Assembly: GCF_003663885.1 (NCBI RefSeq)
Contig: NZ_RCCE01000003.1
Location: 124,001-188,000, forward strand
Direction: 5' to 3'
From: Litoreibacter meonggei
GTDB lineage: Bacteria > Pseudomonadota > Alphaproteobacteria > Rhodobacterales > Rhodobacteraceae
DNA length: 64,000 nucleotides
In this document: in pieces, positions 37,770 through 45,012 of the stretch
Layout: every line of letters begins with the position of its first letter
How positions within the stretch are numbered: position 1 is the first letter of the stretch
The notes under the pieces: generated by a model
Database searches by the model: none
The model's input: the letters and a program-made list of their open reading frames with translations, nothing else
Told to the model about the DNA's origin: nothing
Program-made: the position numbers and the translations under genes

Positions 37770-38320
37770 GCGGGTAGCCCCGGGTTACCCACAACAGCGA
37801 TCGTAGCACTATCGGTCAATTCAAGCGCGTCGTCCTCATCAAGGTGCAACAATTCCGTCAACTTCGCGCGGGCGCGGTTCACGCGGCTTTTGATCGTTCC
37901 CGTTGCCACGCCGCACATCTCCGCAGCATCGTCATACGAAAACCCTGACGCACCCACTAACATCAGCGCTTCACGCTGCTCGTCGGGAAGTTCATTAAGC
38001 GCCTGCTTGAAATCCATCATCTGAAGTCGCCCATCATGTTCCGGCTTTACTGACAAGGTATCCGTGAACACGTTGTCTACATCAGCGACTTCGCGGTTGA
38101 GTTTGCGACGTGAGGTGTAAAAATTGTTACGCAAAATTGTGAACAGCCAAGCGCGCATGTTCGTGCCCGGCTCGAACTTATCAATATTAGTCCATGCCTT
38201 AAGCACTGTATCTTGCATCATATCGTCGGCAGTCGCACGATTACGTGTGAGGCTCAAAGCGAATGCGCGAAGGGCAGGCAAATGCGTGACCACCTCATCT
38301 CTGGGATCAGGAGCGTTCAT
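37766..38320 (-). CDS. ecfG: General stress sigma factor (EcfG family)
   Basis: A 184-residue ECF sigma factor. Region 2 (SLTRNRATADDMMQDTVLKAWTNIDKF, NMRAWLFTILRNNFYTSRRK) and region 4 (LNELPDEQREALMLVGASGFSYDDAAEMCGVATGTIKSRVNRARAKL) match EcfG. Overlap with nepR on one side and the kinase on the other, and the divergent phyR, identify it. It should direct transcription from GGAAC-N16/17-CGTT promoters, several of which are in this window. Confidence 0.92.
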   Translation of the reverse strand: MNAPDPRDEVVTHLPALRAFALSLTRNRATADDMMQDTVLKAWTNIDKFEPGTNMRAWLFTILRNNFYTSRRKLNREVADVDNVFTDTLSVKPEHDGRLQMMDFKQALNELPDEQREALMLVGASGFSYDDAAEMCGVATGTIKSRVNRARAKLTELLHLDEDDALELTDSATIAVVGNPGLPA

Positions 38321-38481
38321 TTTTTTGCCTTCAGTTCTTCGTCTTGCGCGCGAAGAACAGTCAGTAGGTCGGTCAGCTGATCAGGCAGTTGATCCTGCTC
38401 GAATTCTGAAAAGACCTGCTTCAGGTTTTCTTTGATGTAATTTTCAATCTTGTCCTTTTTGGGATCTCGGTTACTTGCCAT
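38317..38481 (-). CDS. nepR: Anti-sigma factor NepR
   Basis: A 54-residue protein (KDKIENYIKENLKQVFSEFEQDQLPDQLTDLLTVLR) with the two short helices typical of NepR, which sequesters EcfG until phosphorylated PhyR binds NepR instead. Start at 38481 is the Met of MASNRDPKK; stop overlaps ecfG by four bases. The gene is too small to be recognised by length alone, but location between phyR and ecfG makes the call firm. Confidence 0.88.
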   Translation of the reverse strand: MASNRDPKKDKIENYIKENLKQVFSEFEQDQLPDQLTDLLTVLRAQDEELKAKK

Positions 38482-38522
38482 TAGAAATCGATGCCTCATC
38501 TGAAGAAATATCACACATAACT

Positions 38523-38548
38523 GGAACCAACTGTCGTCTAGGGTGTTT
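38523..38548 (+). promoter_or_regulatory. EcfG-type promoter of phyR
   Basis: GGAAC (38523-38527), 16 bases, then TGTT (38544-38547): one mismatch from the consensus. phyR starts 32 bases downstream. It almost fully overlaps the opposed nepR promoter at 38529-38554. Confidence 0.65.
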
Positions 38549-38554
38549 GGTTCC
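38529..38554 (-). promoter_or_regulatory. EcfG-type promoter of nepR-ecfG
   Basis: On the minus strand GGAAC (38554-38550), 17 bases, then AGTT (38532-38529). With the phyR promoter it forms an inverted repeat whose ends are GGAACCAA and TTGGTTCC, so each -35 box abuts the -10 box of the other. Confidence 0.55.
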
Positions 38555-38579
38555 CAGAAAAATCGAAAAAGGGAAAACC

Positions 38580-39389
38580 ATGAGCGACATCAGTGCAGAA
38601 CCAAATTTCACGGACCTTATTGCCGCTGAGCTACCTTACCTACGCCGTTACACCCGCGCTCTTACCGGATCCCAAACCCGCGGCGATACCTATACCGTTG
38701 CCACGCTTGAAGCCATTCTAAAGGACAGATCGCCATTTGAGAATGATGCTTCGACCAAAGTGAATCTGTTCAAATGCTTCCATTCGATCTGGTCGACATC
38801 GGGTCAGGCCCTCTCAGAGCCTGAAGACAACCTGCGTAGCCGTGCCCACGGGCTTCTGGCGAAACTCACCCCCTATTCGCGCGAAGCCCTGCTGTTAAGG
38901 ACAGTCGAAGAGTTCAGTTTGGCTCAAATCGCCACTATTATGCAGATTGATCTGGAAGATGTACGTCACCTGATCACGAAGGCGAACGAGGAACTGTCCC
39001 ACAGCGTCAAAGGCCGTATCATGATTATTGAGGACGAACCGATAATCGCAGCCGACTTGAAGGCGATTGTAACCAGTCTGGGTCATGAGGTTACAGGAAT
39101 CGCGCGCACACACCGAGAAGCCGTGGCGCTTGGAAAAGATCAAACGCCGGACTTGATCCTTGCCGATATTCAGTTAGCAGACAATTCTTCCGGCATTGAT
39201 GCGGTAAATGACTTGCTGGAGCTCATGGACGTACCCGTAATCTTTATAACGGCGTTCCCTGAACGACTTTTGACGGGCGACCGTCCGGAGCCGGCGTTCT
39301 TGATATCCAAGCCGTTCCAAGAAGCTCAGGTCCTGTCTGCTGTCAGCCAAGCTATGTTCTTCGCGTCAACGGAAACGCTGAAGGCATAG
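38580..39389 (+). CDS. phyR: PhyR, anti-anti-sigma response regulator
   Basis: A 269-residue protein. Residues 10-130 look like an ECF sigma factor (AAELPYLRRYTRALTGSQTRGDTY, LLRTVEEFSLAQIATIMQIDLEDV) and the C-terminal half is a receiver domain with the phosphorylated Asp in DLILADIQLADNSSG and the Lys in LISKPFQEAQ. Phosphorylation exposes the sigma-like domain to capture NepR and free EcfG. The ATG at 38580 follows GGGAAAACC. Divergent from nepR-ecfG. Confidence 0.95.
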   Translation: MSDISAEPNFTDLIAAELPYLRRYTRALTGSQTRGDTYTVATLEAILKDRSPFENDASTKVNLFKCFHSIWSTSGQALSEPEDNLRSRAHGLLAKLTPYSREALLLRTVEEFSLAQIATIMQIDLEDVRHLITKANEELSHSVKGRIMIIEDEPIIAADLKAIVTSLGHEVTGIARTHREAVALGKDQTPDLILADIQLADNSSGIDAVNDLLELMDVPVIFITAFPERLLTGDRPEPAFLISKPFQEAQVLSAVSQAMFFASTETLKA

Positions 39390-39401
39390 TCAAAAAAGTC
39401 T

Positions 39402-39426
39402 GCCCCGCACATTTGTTGTGCGGGGC
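39402..39426. terminator. Bidirectional intrinsic terminator between phyR and dps
   Basis: A perfect 10-base-pair stem GCCCCGCACA (39402-39411) / TGTGCGGGGC (39417-39426) with a five-base loop. An A run precedes it and a T run follows at 39431-39435, so it can end both convergent transcripts. Confidence 0.8.
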
Positions 39427-39436
39427 TACGTTTTTG

Positions 39437-39934
39437 TTAGTCTGCCGTAATCGCCCGCCACATCCACGCGGCCTGTTCGTGAAAGGCCGATCGCGCAGTC
39501 GCAAGGTCTTCTGTGACCGGGTCATTTTGTTCTCCTGCGATCTCGATCAAGGCATGTAAGCGGTGAGCAACGCGCTCATGATCATCTGCAAGGATGGCGC
39601 ACATCTCCCCAGCAGTCGGCGACTTGTTGTCGTCTTTGACAACCGATTTCTCAATAATCTCTTCCATAGCCATGGGGGCCATTTGACCAACTGCGCGAAT
39701 GCGCTCCGCCAACTTGTCGGCCGCAGCGAACATATCCTCGTACTGGGCCTCTGTCAGGTTGTGGATCGAGTAAAACAGCGGCCCTTCGACATTCCAGTGA
39801 AACGCGTGGGTCTTGAAAGTCAGCCGGTATGTATCTGCAAGTACTTGGCTCAAACCTGTTGCAATAGTCTCAGGCTTTCGAACTCCGGATGAGACTTCTT
39901 TTGGCGTCGCTACAACATTAAGTGGCTGTGTCAT
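39437..39934 (-). CDS. dps: Dps-family DNA-binding ferritin
   Basis: A 165-residue ferritin-like protein that oxidises and stores iron with peroxide and protects DNA. The ferroxidase residues are in FKTHAFHWNVEGPLFYSIHNLTEAQYEDMFAAADKLAERIR and AAWMWRAI ends the helix bundle. The N-terminal 20 residues are disordered-looking and may bind DNA. It follows the DUF1328 gene by 34 bases on the same strand and probably shares its EcfG-type promoter. Confidence 0.92.
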   Translation of the reverse strand: MTQPLNVVATPKEVSSGVRKPETIATGLSQVLADTYRLTFKTHAFHWNVEGPLFYSIHNLTEAQYEDMFAAADKLAERIRAVGQMAPMAMEEIIEKSVVKDDNKSPTAGEMCAILADDHERVAHRLHALIEIAGEQNDPVTEDLATARSAFHEQAAWMWRAITAD

Positions 39935-40293: not shown

Positions 40294-40629
40294 ATGGCAT
40301 CTACAATGACCAAGCTTAGCACCAAGTCGAAATCCGCTACCGCAGAGGATCTCGCTGAACAAATTGAGACCTTGCGCAACGATCTGGGATCGCTGACACA
40401 AACTATCGCTGATCTTGGGAAAGCGAAGGGTGACGAGGCCCTCGCAAGCGCCAAGTCAACCGCTGACAACGTTCGCGCCAAAGCGGCCGACTCCGCTGAG
40501 ACAGCTCGCCTTCAGGCGATGGAGCTCCAAGATCAGGCCAACGATTTCGTTAAGAATCAACCCGCAACCGCGCTCGGGATTGCGGCAGGGCTTGGGTTCT
40601 TAGTCGGCTTCTTTGGCGCGCGGAAGTAG
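40294..40629 (+). CDS. DUF883 (ElaB/YqjD-like) membrane-anchored protein
   Basis: A 111-residue protein with a long charged coiled-coil region (residues 15-85) and a C-terminal hydrophobic anchor (ATALGIAAGLGFLVGFFGARK). ElaB/YqjD relatives are tail-anchored inner-membrane proteins that bind ribosomes in stationary phase in E. coli; role here is inferred. The ATG at 40294 follows GAGGAG. A consensus EcfG promoter precedes it. Confidence 0.85.
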   Translation: MASTMTKLSTKSKSATAEDLAEQIETLRNDLGSLTQTIADLGKAKGDEALASAKSTADNVRAKAADSAETARLQAMELQDQANDFVKNQPATALGIAAGLGFLVGFFGARK

Positions 40630-40632
40630 TCG

Positions 40633-40968
40633 ATGTTCAACATTGAACAAAAGGTAGCAAAAACTGCCAGGAAAGTAGGTCTCCTATCCGGAGGCCTACT
40701 TCTATGTAGTATAGGGATTGGCTTTCTAACCGTTGCTGGGTGGCTTGCGTTAGCTCCAATCGTTGGCGTCCAGCTGACGGCAACCATAATGGCCGGCCTG
40801 TACTTGGGCGTCGGCTGCATTATGATTGGGATTAGCTCAAGAAACTCTCATAGCCCTGAATACCAGAAACAAGCTGAAGCGCCTGTAAAACCCGAAGGAC
40901 CACCGGTCATGCAAGCGTTCATGTTTGGCCTTCAGGCCGGCGCAAAAGCCGAGCAAGCGCGCCGTTGA
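40633..40968 (+). CDS. Small membrane protein, phage-holin-like (DUF1469-type)
   Basis: A 111-residue protein with two hydrophobic segments (LLSGGLLLCSIGIGFLTVAGWLAL and LTATIMAGLYLGVGCIMIGI) and a polar tail. It begins three bases after the DUF883 stop, a common pairing of DUF883 with holin-superfamily III-like proteins in stress operons. No lysis role is implied. Precise family name is uncertain. Confidence 0.65.
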   Translation: MFNIEQKVAKTARKVGLLSGGLLLCSIGIGFLTVAGWLALAPIVGVQLTATIMAGLYLGVGCIMIGISSRNSHSPEYQKQAEAPVKPEGPPVMQAFMFGLQAGAKAEQARR

Positions 40969-41116
40969 ACAGCGGCCCGACTCGACACCAAAGCGAAATC
41001 GATCGACCTAGGTCACCATAGACATCCCTTTTGGTGGCAGCATGCGTGCATGATGAAGCCCCCCTGCCAGAAGGTGCTCGTATGAGTACATCAATTTTCT
41101 AATCTATTTGTCTTGG

Positions 41117-41193
41117 TGGCGATCCCTGAAGGACTCGAACCCTCAACCTGCTGATTAGAAGTCAGCTGCTCTATCCAGTTGAGCTAAGGGACC
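41117..41193 (-). tRNA. tRNA-Arg (anticodon TCT)
   Basis: The minus strand folds as a 77-base tRNA: acceptor GGTCCCT pairs with AGGGATC, followed by discriminator G and an encoded CCA. The D arm includes AGCTCAACTGGATAGAGC, the anticodon arm has stem GCTGA/TCAGC with loop CTTCTAA (anticodon TCT), and the T arm contains GGTTCGAGTCC. It reads AGA codons. Confidence 0.95.
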
Positions 41194-41264
41194 GCTGCCC
41201 GCTTATTGCGAAAGGCTGACTTGAAACGCAAGGGCTTTGCTTCTTTATCGTCACTGGTTAAACG

Positions 41265-41277
41265 TGAACATAGTTCA
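41265..41277. promoter_or_regulatory. TetR operator, copy 1 (tetR leader)
   Basis: TGAACATAGTTCA, matching TGAAC-N3-GTTCA. It lies 10 bases before the tetR ATG and after a likely promoter (TTGAAA at 41221-41226), suggesting autorepression. Confidence 0.65.
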
Positions 41278-41287
41278 AGGGGGCCAT

Positions 41288-41896
41288 ATGGCGGGTAAAG
41301 TTCAAAAGAAGCGCGAAGATTTGCGCGCAAAGCTCATTGATCTTGCTGAGGAGCGGATCAAGGTCGGCGGCATCTCGGCAGTCCGCGCCCGTGATCTAGC
41401 CAAGGAAGCAGGCTGCGCGGTCGGAGCCATCTACAATGTCTTTGGTGACATGAACGATCTGGTGATGGCCGTGAATGCGCGCACGTTCAAACGCGTCGGT
41501 GCTCAGGTCTCCGCAGCGGTCGCAGAAGAACCGCCCGGCCATCCCGTCAAAACCATGATCGCGATGTCCCATGCCTACCTTCACTTCGCGCGCGACAACA
41601 CACCCGCATGGCGAACCCTTTTTGATCTAGAGGTTTCGACCGAGGAATCCGTGCCGAAGTGGTATCTTGAGGAACTGCAGAAGGTATTTTCGCTGATTGC
41701 TGATCCACTCAAGCGAATCTTCCCTGATATGTCGCCCGAAGATGTGAGTCTTATGACCCGCGGGCTGTTCTCTTCGGTGCATGGAATCGTGCTATTGGGG
41801 CTGGAGAAGCGTATTTCGGGCGTCCCTATCGACCAGCTTGAGCATATGATTACCCTTGTTTTCAGCCACTTAACCTCCACTCCGTCAAAAAAGTGA
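41288..41896 (+). CDS. TetR-family transcriptional regulator
   Basis: A 202-residue regulator. The N-terminal helix-turn-helix is in ISAVRARDLAKEAGCAVGAIYNVFGDMNDLVMAV (residues 28-62), typical of TetR, with a ligand-binding C-terminal domain of the WHG/TetR_C_33 type (WRTLFDLEVSTEESVPKWYLEEL). The ATG at 41288 is preceded by AAGGGGG. Four TGAAC-N3-GTTCA sites flank the gene, one before it and three between it and pspA, so it most likely represses itself and pspA. The inducer is unknown. Confidence 0.88.
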   Translation: MAGKVQKKREDLRAKLIDLAEERIKVGGISAVRARDLAKEAGCAVGAIYNVFGDMNDLVMAVNARTFKRVGAQVSAAVAEEPPGHPVKTMIAMSHAYLHFARDNTPAWRTLFDLEVSTEESVPKWYLEELQKVFSLIADPLKRIFPDMSPEDVSLMTRGLFSSVHGIVLLGLEKRISGVPIDQLEHMITLVFSHLTSTPSKK

Positions 41897-41906
41897 ACAT
41901 TGTTCA
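41894..41906. promoter_or_regulatory. TetR operator, copy 2
   Basis: TGAACATTGTTCA, a near-perfect palindrome; it begins at the tetR stop codon (TGA at 41894) and lies upstream of the pspA promoter. Confidence 0.65.
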
Positions 41907-41916
41907 AAATATTTCT

Positions 41917-41929
41917 TGAACAATGTTCA
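41917..41929. promoter_or_regulatory. TetR operator, copy 3, over the pspA -35 box
   Basis: TGAACAATGTTCA. It overlaps TTGAAC (41916-41921), a plausible -35 element that pairs with TATCTT (41938-41943) at 16-base spacing. Binding here would block RNA polymerase. Confidence 0.65.
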
Positions 41930-41950
41930 GAAACTCGTATCTTGAATTCA

Positions 41951-41963
41951 TGAACGGCGTTCA
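41951..41963. promoter_or_regulatory. TetR operator, copy 4, downstream of the pspA -10 box
   Basis: TGAACGGCGTTCA, the most diverged spacer of the four. It sits about at the expected pspA transcription start, 30 bases before the ATG. Confidence 0.55.
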
Positions 41964-41992
41964 CGAAGCGCTACCATGTAGGAGAGACCAAG

Positions 41993-42670
41993 ATGTTTTT
42001 GACTTTGAAGACCCTTATGACCGGTGCGAACGCCCGGGCCGAAGAAAAGGTCCGCGACGTCTATGCCATCGAATTGATTGAACAAAAGACACGTGAAGCC
42101 TCAAGCAGCCTCGCCGCTGCCAAGGCGACGCTTGCCAGCCTGATCCAACGCCACCGCGGCGAGGATCGCCAGGTCCGCTCGATAGAGGCCCGCGTATCTG
42201 ACCTTACTGATCGTGCCACGAAGGCGCTGGACGATGACAACGAAGCCATGGCCTCCGAGGCAGCCAACGCGATCGCCCAGCTTGAAAACGAGCTGGAGGT
42301 CCGCCGCCAGACCCTCGCACGCCTTGATCAACGCATCATGCGTCTGCGTCAAAGCATTGAGACCGGCCACCGACGCATCATCGACCTGAAGCAAGGCGCC
42401 ATCACCGCTAAGGCTGTGCGCTACGAGCAGTCGATACAAGCCAAGCTGAACACAACCCTGCAAGGGCAATCCAGCGTGGCCGAGGCGGAAGAGCTGATCG
42501 CAAACGTCCTGAAGAAGGACGACCCGTTCGAGCAGGCAGAAATCCTCGCCGATATCGACCGCGACCTGAGCCACGAAACGCTCGCCGATCGTATGTCTGA
42601 CGCCGGATACGGTGCCGCGACGCGGGCCACGGGGGCAGATGTCCTCAAGCGCCTGAAGTCCAAGAAATAA
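41993..42670 (+). CDS. pspA: PspA/IM30 family envelope-stress protein
   Basis: A 225-residue coiled-coil protein of the PspA/IM30 (ESCRT-III-like) family, with long helices from residue 15 to 150 (VRDVYAIELIEQKTREASSSL, MASEAANAIAQLENELEVRRQTLARLDQRI). PspA coats and repairs damaged inner membranes. No PspF or sigma-54 site was seen; instead three TetR operators precede it. It is followed 40 bases later by the yiaA-like gene. Confidence 0.85.
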   Translation: MFLTLKTLMTGANARAEEKVRDVYAIELIEQKTREASSSLAAAKATLASLIQRHRGEDRQVRSIEARVSDLTDRATKALDDDNEAMASEAANAIAQLENELEVRRQTLARLDQRIMRLRQSIETGHRRIIDLKQGAITAKAVRYEQSIQAKLNTTLQGQSSVAEAEELIANVLKKDDPFEQAEILADIDRDLSHETLADRMSDAGYGAATRATGADVLKRLKSKK

Positions 42671-42709
42671 GCCAATTCAAACGCAATATCCAAGACAAGG
42701 AATACTCCA

Positions 42710-42997
42710 ATGAACAACGCATTCAAATCCGACAACGCCCTGATCATGATGGTGAACTTGGCTGGTGTTTTTATCGCCTACGGCATGCTGGCCCTATCGC
42801 TTTACATGTCCCCTGACGTGCCGCTGGCCACCAAAGGTTACTGGGGTATCGGTATCCTGATGCTGTCGCTCAGCTTGGTGAACTTCGTGAAATACCGTTT
42901 TGACGAGCGGATCAACGAAGACCGCATCCAGCAGATCGAACGCGCCAAGAACGAGAAAATCCTCGAGGACTACGTGACGGTCGACAAAGCTGCTTAG
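42710..42997 (+). CDS. YiaA/YiaB family inner-membrane protein
   Basis: A 95-residue protein with two hydrophobic helices (NLAGVFIAYGMLALSLYM and GYWGIGILMLSLSLVNFVKY), the YiaAB two-helix domain, and a charged C-terminus (FDERINEDRIQQIERAKNEKI). The domain's function is unknown; here it accompanies pspA, so it may anchor or sense for it. A strong terminator follows. Confidence 0.8.
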   Translation: MNNAFKSDNALIMMVNLAGVFIAYGMLALSLYMSPDVPLATKGYWGIGILMLSLSLVNFVKYRFDERINEDRIQQIERAKNEKILEDYVTVDKAA

Positions 42998-43014
42998 CCG
43001 ACCCTCACGATAGC

Positions 43015-43047
43015 AACCGCGCCCTCCTCCCCGGGGGCGCGGTTTTT
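43015..43047 (+). terminator. Intrinsic terminator after pspA-yiaA
   Basis: Stem AACCGCGCCC (43015-43024) / GGGCGCGGTT (43035-43044) followed by a T run to 43047. It ends the pspA transcript ahead of plsC. Confidence 0.85.
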
Positions 43048-43106
43048 CTTGATTAAAGCACGCAAAACTTGTCCCTTGGGTGGACCAAATAAAAAGAGAC
43101 CCCCGT

Positions 43107-43745
43107 ATGCGCCGTTTCGCCGCCTCCATCGTTGGGCAATTGCTGATCTTCTTCGCGCAGTTCATCACCGCCGCGCGCGCCGACTGGCGCGGAATCGAGC
43201 CCGTTCGCCGTCAACGCATCTACTATGCCAACCATTCCTCCAATGCGGACCTGCCCCTGATCTGGACTGTGCTTCCCGCAGCTTTGCGCCGCGACACCCG
43301 TGCCGTGGCCGCTGCCGACTATTGGCTAAAAAACAAGCTGCGCGCCTTCATCGGCCGCGACGTGTTCCACGGCATCCTGATCGACCGCCGGGCCGAGCAC
43401 CGCACAGAGGACCCGATTGCCAAAATCGTCGAAGCCTTGGACGAGGGCGCGTCGATCATCATCTTCCCCGAAGGTGGCCGCAACCGAACCGAGGACCCGC
43501 TGATGCCGTTCAAGGCCGGCCTCTACAATATCGCCCGCCAACGCCCCGAGATTGATCTGGTCCCTTGCTGGATCGACAACATTTCCCACATCATGCCGAC
43601 GGGCGAGGTGATCCCCGTCCCGCTTGCCTGCACCGTCACCTTTGGGGCCCCCGTCCATGTGCGCGAAGAAGAGGCCAAAAACGCCTTCCTCAAACGCGCC
43701 TCCGACGCCTTGCGAGACCTGATCCCCGCGCGAGGGCATGCGTGA
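43107..43745 (+). CDS. plsC: 1-acyl-sn-glycerol-3-phosphate acyltransferase-like protein
   Basis: A 212-residue acyltransferase that makes phosphatidic acid from lysophosphatidate. The catalytic NHSSNAD (HxxxxD) motif and the glycerophosphate motif FPEGGRNRT are present. A GTG at 43080 is in frame, but the ATG at 43107 gives a standard N-terminus with a hydrophobic segment. It overlaps the cdsA-like gene by one base; the two catalyse consecutive steps of phospholipid synthesis. A second, unlinked plsC is likely elsewhere. Confidence 0.85.
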   Translation: MRRFAASIVGQLLIFFAQFITAARADWRGIEPVRRQRIYYANHSSNADLPLIWTVLPAALRRDTRAVAAADYWLKNKLRAFIGRDVFHGILIDRRAEHRTEDPIAKIVEALDEGASIIIFPEGGRNRTEDPLMPFKAGLYNIARQRPEIDLVPCWIDNISHIMPTGEVIPVPLACTVTFGAPVHVREEEAKNAFLKRASDALRDLIPARGHA

Positions 43746-44704
43746 TGGAAATGACCCAAACCAATTCCGACCTCCTATTCCTGCTGGCGGCCTGCTGCGG
43801 CCTCCTCGTCATCGCGACGCTGATCGGTGAAGTGCTGCGCGCGCGCCTGCACAAAACCCATGCGAACCTCACGGTGGAGACCTACCTGACGCGGGTCCAC
43901 AGCTGGTGGGGAATGGTGTTTCTGTTCTCCATCGCCTTGTTGCTCGGACCCGTGGGGATCATCACCCTATTCGCCTTTTGCTCACTCGCCGCCCTGCGCG
44001 AATTCCTGACGCTGACCACCAAAACAAACGCCGACCATTGGTCGTTGATCGCCAGCTTCTACCTGATCCTGCCGCTGCAATACGTGCTAATCTGGTGGGG
44101 CGCGGTCGGGCTGTTTTCAACGCTGATCCCGATCTACGCCTTCCTCCTGCTGCCCATCCTCAGCGTCCTGCGAGGCGGCGAAGGGGCCGACAAAAACTTC
44201 CTCGCCCGCATATCCGAAACCCAATGGGGCCTGATGATTTGCGTGTTCTGCGCCAGCTACATCCCCGCCTTGGTCACACTCGACATTCCCGACTACGGCG
44301 ACCGCGCACCGCTGCTCATCGCCTACTTGGTGTTTGTCATCCAGATGGGTGATCTGATGGAGTACTTCGCAGGCCGCCGCATCGGCAAACGCAAGGTGGC
44401 GCCAGCCGTTTCGCCAAAAACCCGTGAAGGCATTGCGTGTGGCGCAGCGCTCGCTGCGGGTCTCGGCCTGCTGCTCACATGGATGACGCCATTCTCGCCG
44501 CTCGCATCCATGGCGATGGCAGTGATGGCATACATGGTCGGCGTCGGTGGGTCTTTGGTTCTGGCGGCAATCAAGTCAGATCGCGGCATCAAGAACTGGG
44601 GCCACCTGATCCCCGGCCAAGGCGGTTTCGTCGATCAACTCGACTCAGTGGTCTTTGCCGCGCCAGTGTTTTTCCACGTCACGCGCCATTACTACGGAGG
44701 CTAG
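43745..44704 (+). CDS. cdsA: Phosphatidate cytidylyltransferase (CDP-diacylglycerol synthase)
   Basis: A 319-residue membrane protein with about eight hydrophobic segments and the CdsA signature region near the C-terminus (SDRGIKNWGHLIPGQGGFVDQLDSVVFA), though it deviates from the textbook pattern (GQGGFVDQLD instead of HGGxxDRxD). It makes CDP-diacylglycerol from phosphatidate and CTP. Start chosen at the ATG 43745, directly on the plsC stop. Its 3' end overlaps the convergent NDUFS4-like gene by four bases. Confidence 0.82.
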   Translation: MEMTQTNSDLLFLLAACCGLLVIATLIGEVLRARLHKTHANLTVETYLTRVHSWWGMVFLFSIALLLGPVGIITLFAFCSLAALREFLTLTTKTNADHWSLIASFYLILPLQYVLIWWGAVGLFSTLIPIYAFLLLPILSVLRGGEGADKNFLARISETQWGLMICVFCASYIPALVTLDIPDYGDRAPLLIAYLVFVIQMGDLMEYFAGRRIGKRKVAPAVSPKTREGIACGAALAAGLGLLLTWMTPFSPLASMAMAVMAYMVGVGGSLVLAAIKSDRGIKNWGHLIPGQGGFVDQLDSVVFAAPVFFHVTRHYYGG

Positions 44705-45012
44705 TGCGTCCAAACCCCACGGCGGTTCGTCGCGAAGTTCTCACCGTAGCCGCCCGGACGGATCACCGGTTTGCGTTTCTTGGGGTCAGTGACGACCGCG
44801 ACGATGCCCTTGTCTTTGGCATAATCCAACGCGGCTTCCTTGCTGTCGAAGGTCAGCTTCACCTGCGCTTGCGTGTCAGCCGACGACGTCCAGCCCATCA
44901 ACGGGTCCACTTCACGGGCCGTTTCGTTCACGAACTCCAAAACCCAATTTTTGGTCTTGGCCGTGCCCGATTGCATGGCGGTTCTGGTTGGCTGGTAAAT
45001 GCGTGCGCGCAT
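44701..45012 (-). CDS. Complex I NDUFS4-like (ETC complex I subunit conserved region) protein
   Basis: A 103-residue protein: [27 protein letters not shown], then [18 protein letters not shown] and [16 protein letters not shown], and a C-terminal [19 protein letters not shown]. This is the NDUFS4 fold, an accessory subunit of complex I in alphaproteobacteria and mitochondria. Start at 45012 has GGAGAAAATCCC upstream; the longer frame extends into uvrB on the other strand and is not used. Divergent from uvrB. Confidence 0.88.

Follow-up and report, generated by a model that had tools for sequence, protein, structure and literature searches.

The 64,000-nucleotide stretch of the Litoreibacter meonggei genome analysed here (contig NZ_RCCE01000003.1, positions 124,001 to 188,000; hereafter the window) carries co-directional genes for a TetR-family repressor, the membrane-stress protein PspA and a small YiaA-like membrane protein, followed by a hairpin and a plsC-cdsA pair, and the module is marked by four exact palindromes of the form TGAAC-N3-GTTCA. 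It has long been asked what PspA systems sense; in this case we consider it probable that a TetR repressor, itself autoregulated, releases a membrane-repair regulon in response to a product of phospholipid breakdown. The recurrence of the operators in related genomes suggests a TetR regulon across Alphaproteobacteria that joins PspA and YiaA to lysophospholipid recycling. The features of the module are:

41265–41277, no strand: O1, putative autoregulatory operator lying 10 bp upstream of the tetR start; exact palindrome
41288–41896, plus strand: tetR, TetR-family repressor, 202 aa; TetR_N match
41894–41906, no strand: O2, putative upstream operator of the pspA array; exact, O2-O3 distance here 23 bp
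41916–41943, plus strand: pspA promoter read from the sequence, TTGAAC (41916–41921), 16 bp, TATCTT (41938–41943)
41917–41929, no strand: O3, putative operator containing the -35 box; exact
41951–41963, no strand: O4, putative operator at the expected pspA transcription start; exact, O3-O4 distance here 34 bp
41993–42670, plus strand: pspA, PspA/IM30 family, 225 aa; Pfam match
42710–42997, plus strand: YiaA-like two-helix membrane protein, 95 aa; below the YiaAB cut-off, orthologs above it

The initial annotation had placed palindromes at 41265 (TGAACATAGTTCA), 41894 (TGAACATTGTTCA), 41917 (TGAACAATGTTCA) and 41951 (TGAACGGCGTTCA), and all four are exact and correctly positioned. The window would be expected to hold 0.08 such sites, and none of 100 shuffles reached four; in the whole 3.95-Mb genome, in which the window sits on one contig, the exact palindrome occurs at these four places only, against a single occurrence of a reversed control pattern. 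That control is also absent from all 198 genomes of the family sample described below, and on these grounds a chance origin of the palindromes was rejected. Allowing one mismatch gives 96 places genome-wide against 84 for the control, which is no clear sign of further sites in this genome. The placement of the sites relative to the genes and to a plausible pspA promoter was also as first described: O1 precedes tetR, O2 lies upstream of the promoter with its first three bases forming the tetR stop codon, O3 falls on the -35 box and O4 follows. The promoter TTGAAC-N16-TATCTT is present in the sequence as proposed, and a generic sigma-70 scan of 41000–44800 reported no promoter-like site, this one included.

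Conservation of the module was assessed in a sample of 198 Rhodobacteraceae genomes, searched for TetR at E ≤ 1e-20 and for PspA by the Pfam cut-off, with matches in the extracted stretches being open frames found by hidden Markov model rather than called genes. TetR is present in 43 of these genomes and PspA in 36. Every one of the 36 PspA genomes has exact sites before pspA, three in 27 genomes and two in 9, so that the palindromes are conserved in orthologous loci, one of the points on which the initial annotation had staked its proposal. The linkage it described is likewise borne out: TetR shares the stretch with pspA in 35/36 and a YiaA-like gene stands directly behind pspA in 34/36. The tetR gene is co-directional with pspA in 31 genomes, divergent in four, where the array lies between the two genes, and unlinked in one (G132), where tetR, preceded by one site, is on a separate contig and a pair remains at pspA. 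At the co-directional loci a site recurs 23–60 bp before tetR. The closely spaced pair of sites occurs in 31 of the 198 genomes, 29 of which have PspA over the cut-off (Fisher p = 7e-26); one of these 29, G055, has its pair at a different gene and two sites of unlike spacing at pspA. At tetR loci lacking an adjacent pspA, a single site precedes tetR in L068, L074, L078, L088 and L098, two sites are found in L065, and L081, L091 and L097 have no exact site.

The anatomy of the array became clearer in a scan of Genome Taxonomy Database contigs for two palindromes 8–11 bp apart, which used no protein information and returned at least 120 stretches; all counts of arrays given here and below are among the matches listed. 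A triple array is present in 103 of 120 stretches, with an O2-O3 distance of 22 or 23 bp in 101 and an O3-O4 distance of 33–36 bp in 95. A T stands immediately 5' of O3 in 101/103 arrays, of O2 in 41 and of O4 in 10, and a TANNNT motif follows 16 bp past the half-site at O3 in 32, at O4 in 2 and at O2 in none. The O3 site, thus extended to TTGAAC, doubles as the -35 element, a layout typical of promoters under repression. Of 309 sites, 289 have purine-any-pyrimidine as their central three bases. In 87 of the 103 array stretches there is a TetR match, counting weak ones. The arrangement, which had been singled out as unusual, is therefore not peculiar to the window genome and is widespread in Alphaproteobacteria.

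The genes downstream of the listed arrays connect PspA to lipid metabolism. PspA follows 69 of the 103 (a PspA in L174 was left out by a distance rule) and an LplT-Aas fusion follows 35, in 18 cases behind pspA-yiaA in one row, the classes thus overlapping; a PldB-like, lysophospholipase-like hydrolase follows three, and for six the target falls outside the stretch that was extracted. The fusion combines major facilitator superfamily (MFS), PlsC and AMP-binding domains. The L122 protein scores over the NF005291 cut-off for acyl-[ACP]--phospholipid O-acyltransferase (1631.1 against 1349 bits), and the other LplT-Aas loci were assigned by tblastn to it at 39–63% identity. The hydrolase of L169 has lysophospholipase L2 PldB as its best match, under the equivalog cut-off (46.9 against 362 bits), hence PldB-like. 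An Ensifer plasmid annotated by NCBI shows the full row of a WHG-domain TetR, PspA, a YiaA/YiaB family inner membrane protein and acyl-[ACP]--phospholipid O-acyltransferase. Six Mesorhizobium genomes carry exactly two arrays each; in every one of them the array before aas has no TetR in its stretch and a TetR accompanies the second array, together with pspA-yiaA in 5/6; in G591 one array serves tetR and a PldB-like gene and the second pspA-yiaA. The occurrence of one array before pspA, lplT-aas or a PldB-like gene in different genomes indicates, at the level of sequence, one regulator family with one operator that exchanges these targets. The known LplT-Aas lysophospholipid remodelling system, in the part of its description available (PMC11416262), shares the MFS, PlsC and AMP-binding domains of these fusions, which differ in standing under a PspA array and have no counterpart found in the window genome.

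The names given to PspA and YiaA held unequally. The window PspA scores over the Pfam PspA/IM30 (PF04012) cut-off (57.0 against 33.9 bits) and is the only PspA_IM30 match in the genome; against NCBIfam it has no match at E up to 0.001, and the TIGR02977 PspA equivalog is not among its assignments. The YiaA-like protein reaches 15.9 bits, under the YiaAB (PF05360) cut-off of 26.6, as does an uncultured Litoreibacter counterpart (19.8), whereas distant counterparts in Ensifer (63.9), Rhizobium (64.9) and Mesorhizobium (36.1) exceed it. Like pspF-pspABC of Escherichia coli, the locus places a PspA/IM30 protein under dedicated transcriptional control; unlike it, the control would be TetR repression and the partner is YiaA-like, no search having been made for PspB or PspC. 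For PspF, the best score in the window genome is 193.7 bits, under the cut-off of 443.55, and PspF control of this pspA was rejected. The locus also resembles PspA partner systems in that PspA occurs together with a regulator and with a partner that is a small membrane protein; the main text of the source on these systems, as far as it was accessible, has 0 occurrences of TetR, YiaA, lysophosph- or acyltransferase (PMC11237479).

The window TetR carries a TetR_N DNA-binding domain over the cut-off (31.0 against 24 bits) and has an all-helical TetR fold. Structure alignment A1 drew on 56 of 65 non-redundant TetR rows. Residues Y97, W108 and H165 of the ligand domain are invariant. The window TetR is 99% identical to its Litoreibacter ascidiaceicola counterpart, with which, and with that of L. 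halocynthiae, it groups in a quickly built tree of 85 regulators. On this tree the pspA label is clustered (16 changes against a shuffled mean of 28.5), as species kinship would produce, and the aas-only label is scattered, with 9 changes for 10 rows and 162 of 500 shuffles equally low. Protein Data Bank entry 3cjd, a TetR regulator of Jannaschia sp. CCS1, is a solved apparent ortholog, and our literature search found no paper describing it. The acyl-CoA-responsive TetR repressors FadR and FasR, and KstR, are 14–18% identical to the window protein and have different targets; the operator of KstR is one that we presume to be similar to the palindromes.

Expression data come from Rhizobium tropici CIAT 899, whose plasmid c carries tetR, three sites, pspA, yiaA and aas, with a single PspA. 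In the portion of a published RNA-seq study available, comparing pH 4.5 with pH 6.8, the PspA gene RS28825 has a log2 fold change of 4.87 and RS28820 one of 4.46, that is, pspA and its neighbour rise ~20- to 30-fold; acid shock for 45 min raises 11 genes, PspA at 4.42 among them, and TetR RS28830 is listed among responding regulators and tied to efflux, its direction not stated (PMC5936775). Plasmid, gene order and the single PspA agree, and we therefore equate RS28820–RS28830 with the tetR-pspA locus of the record analysed, which carries no annotation.

These observations are accommodated by a model in which TetR keeps a membrane-repair operon shut, consisting of pspA-yiaA in the window and of pspA-yiaA-lplT/aas or lplT/aas alone in relatives. 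With TetR dimers on O2, O3 and O4, the upstream flank of pspA would be covered along with its -35 box and transcription start, and O1 would shut tetR itself. Upon phospholipid damage, a breakdown product, most likely a lysophospholipid or else the accompanying fatty acid or acyl-CoA, would fit the TetR pocket and release the repressor; PspA and its small partner YiaA would then be made and patch the inner membrane, and in relatives LplT-Aas would re-import and re-acylate the lysolipid, thereby removing the signal. Repression by TetR is well supported by promoter anatomy. A more specific version, to which we would give somewhat less than even chances, makes TetR a dedicated lysophospholipid sensor, the first of its kind, with the ESCRT-III-like repair protein PspA, YiaA and the flippase-acyltransferase co-induced across Alphaproteobacteria by the lipid they remove.

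Several points weigh against this model. DNA binding by the window TetR, repression as its mode of action and the ligand are all inferred from sequence. The fold neighbours of the protein include drug-binding as well as acyl-CoA-binding repressors, and the acid induction in R. tropici names no lipid. LplT-Aas gave no match in the window genome at E up to 1e-100 and none over the cut-off in the 198 family genomes, for each of which three candidates only were scored; it is not supported as a target within the family, where the lipid link is accordingly drawn from relatives. There are also tetR genes from which pspA has been lost and at which O1 alone is left. Eight of the listed triple arrays (L124, L168, L170, L184, L185, L199, L212 and L213) precede other genes. 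The 17 pair-only stretches of the 120 comprise 3 with Aas, 1 PldB-like, 1 with PspA by Pfam (L110) and 12 without a recognised target, these last probably reflecting chance or other systems. In a sample of 385 genomes of the class the pair occurs in seven, and in only three of these (the window genome, G075 and G427) is it at the tetR-pspA module; it stands at other genes in G055 and G275 and without a recognised neighbour in G473, the seventh genome being G279. The pair alone is thus weaker evidence than the triple array.

The ligand first suggested, a membrane-perturbing molecule, is close to an alternative in which TetR senses foreign amphiphiles such as drugs and detergents, as QacR does, with PspA and lipid recycling induced as protection. 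We regard this as unlikely, since the recognised targets of the 103 arrays are PspA, LplT-Aas and the PldB-like hydrolase, efflux pumps not having been searched among the rest; the presence of the same array before lysophospholipid-recycling genes in relatives better supports a compound released when the cell breaks down its own phospholipids, and we have amended the proposal to that effect. A signal might also reach TetR through contact with PspA or YiaA, without a small ligand, much as E. coli PspA holds PspF by contact. The near-constant company of tetR, pspA and yiaA in the family would fit such an arrangement, but six TetR-bearing triple arrays precede lplT-aas with no PspA or YiaA within the stretch, which is as far as this count extends, and we judge it improbable. 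That a different regulator binds the palindromes and TetR is a bystander seems very improbable indeed. In its favour, 16 of the 103 arrays have no TetR match in the fetched stretch; against this, the other 87 do, the TetR-less arrays of the six Mesorhizobium genomes have a TetR at the partner array, and in several genomes tetR genes that lost pspA retain a site before themselves.

The classical phage-shock signal is a loosely defined membrane stress read via protein contacts. The sensor described here resembles a one-component repressor that has a pocket; its operators are defined, the promoter recurs and the structure of an apparent ortholog (3cjd) is solved, so that simple release assays could be used to look for the inducer. 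The association with lysophospholipid recycling points to phospholipid breakdown or packing defects as what PspA responds to, and the locus provides YiaA with a context and LplT-Aas with a point of control. Were TetR indeed a lysophospholipid sensor, the inducer of PspA would be chemically defined. A 2026 paper on E. coli, in the part available, presents its result as the first case of a signalling function for bacterial lysophospholipids (PMC13170283); a repressor gated by a lysolipid would add a second, direct case. Within the part of the open-licence literature searched, neither titles nor abstracts report that pspA or lplT-aas is controlled by a TetR, which is not proof of novelty, and no paper combines PspA with YiaAB, or PspA with both YiaA and TetR.

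Downstream of the module, the window contains:

43015–43044, plus strand: intrinsic terminator-like hairpin, 3' of the YiaA-like gene
43107–43745, plus strand: plsC-like acyltransferase; Acyltransferase 71.1 bits, in 7/31 family stretches with PspA
43745–44704, plus strand: cdsA-like cytidylyltransferase; CTP_transf_1 162.9 bits

The plsC-like and cdsA-like genes are possible but unproven members of the regulon. They were rejected as firm members of the operon given the intervening terminator, their presence in only seven of the 31 stretches and the decay of sites in G171, a genome of the same genus in which pspA and yiaA are gone (L065), O2 and O3 have decayed, O4 is kept and plsC-cdsA follow. 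Just upstream of the module lies a tRNA-Arg (TCT) gene (41117–41193, minus strand), preceded by a paired DUF883/ElaB-like gene (below the cut-off) and Holin-X family gene (over the cut-off) at 40294–40968. Frames at 38317–39934, 1.4–3 kb upstream, resemble what we take to be NepR, PhyR and Dps of the general stress response.

Sites were also noted at other genes. The pair in G275 (L253:3556–4238) is accompanied by a TetR of much more remote kinship (E = 2e-6) and by a third site at a distance of 52 bp, which may reflect convergence or a deep relative. Two Rhodobacterales genomes (L144:2531–2947 and L255:4075–4473) have a pair directly before a small lipoprotein-like gene, similar in both as judged by eye. 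In G054 a pair precedes a DUF2339 membrane protein (L259:4222–7059; 305 bits) and in G022 a full triple array precedes an unassigned 233-aa protein (L260:1755–2534), both genes being possible further members of the regulon. A triple array lies ~390 bp before a glucose/sorbosone dehydrogenase-like gene in L168 (4672–6404), and another in G166 (L262:128–602) precedes a short frame that by eye resembles a truncated PspA.
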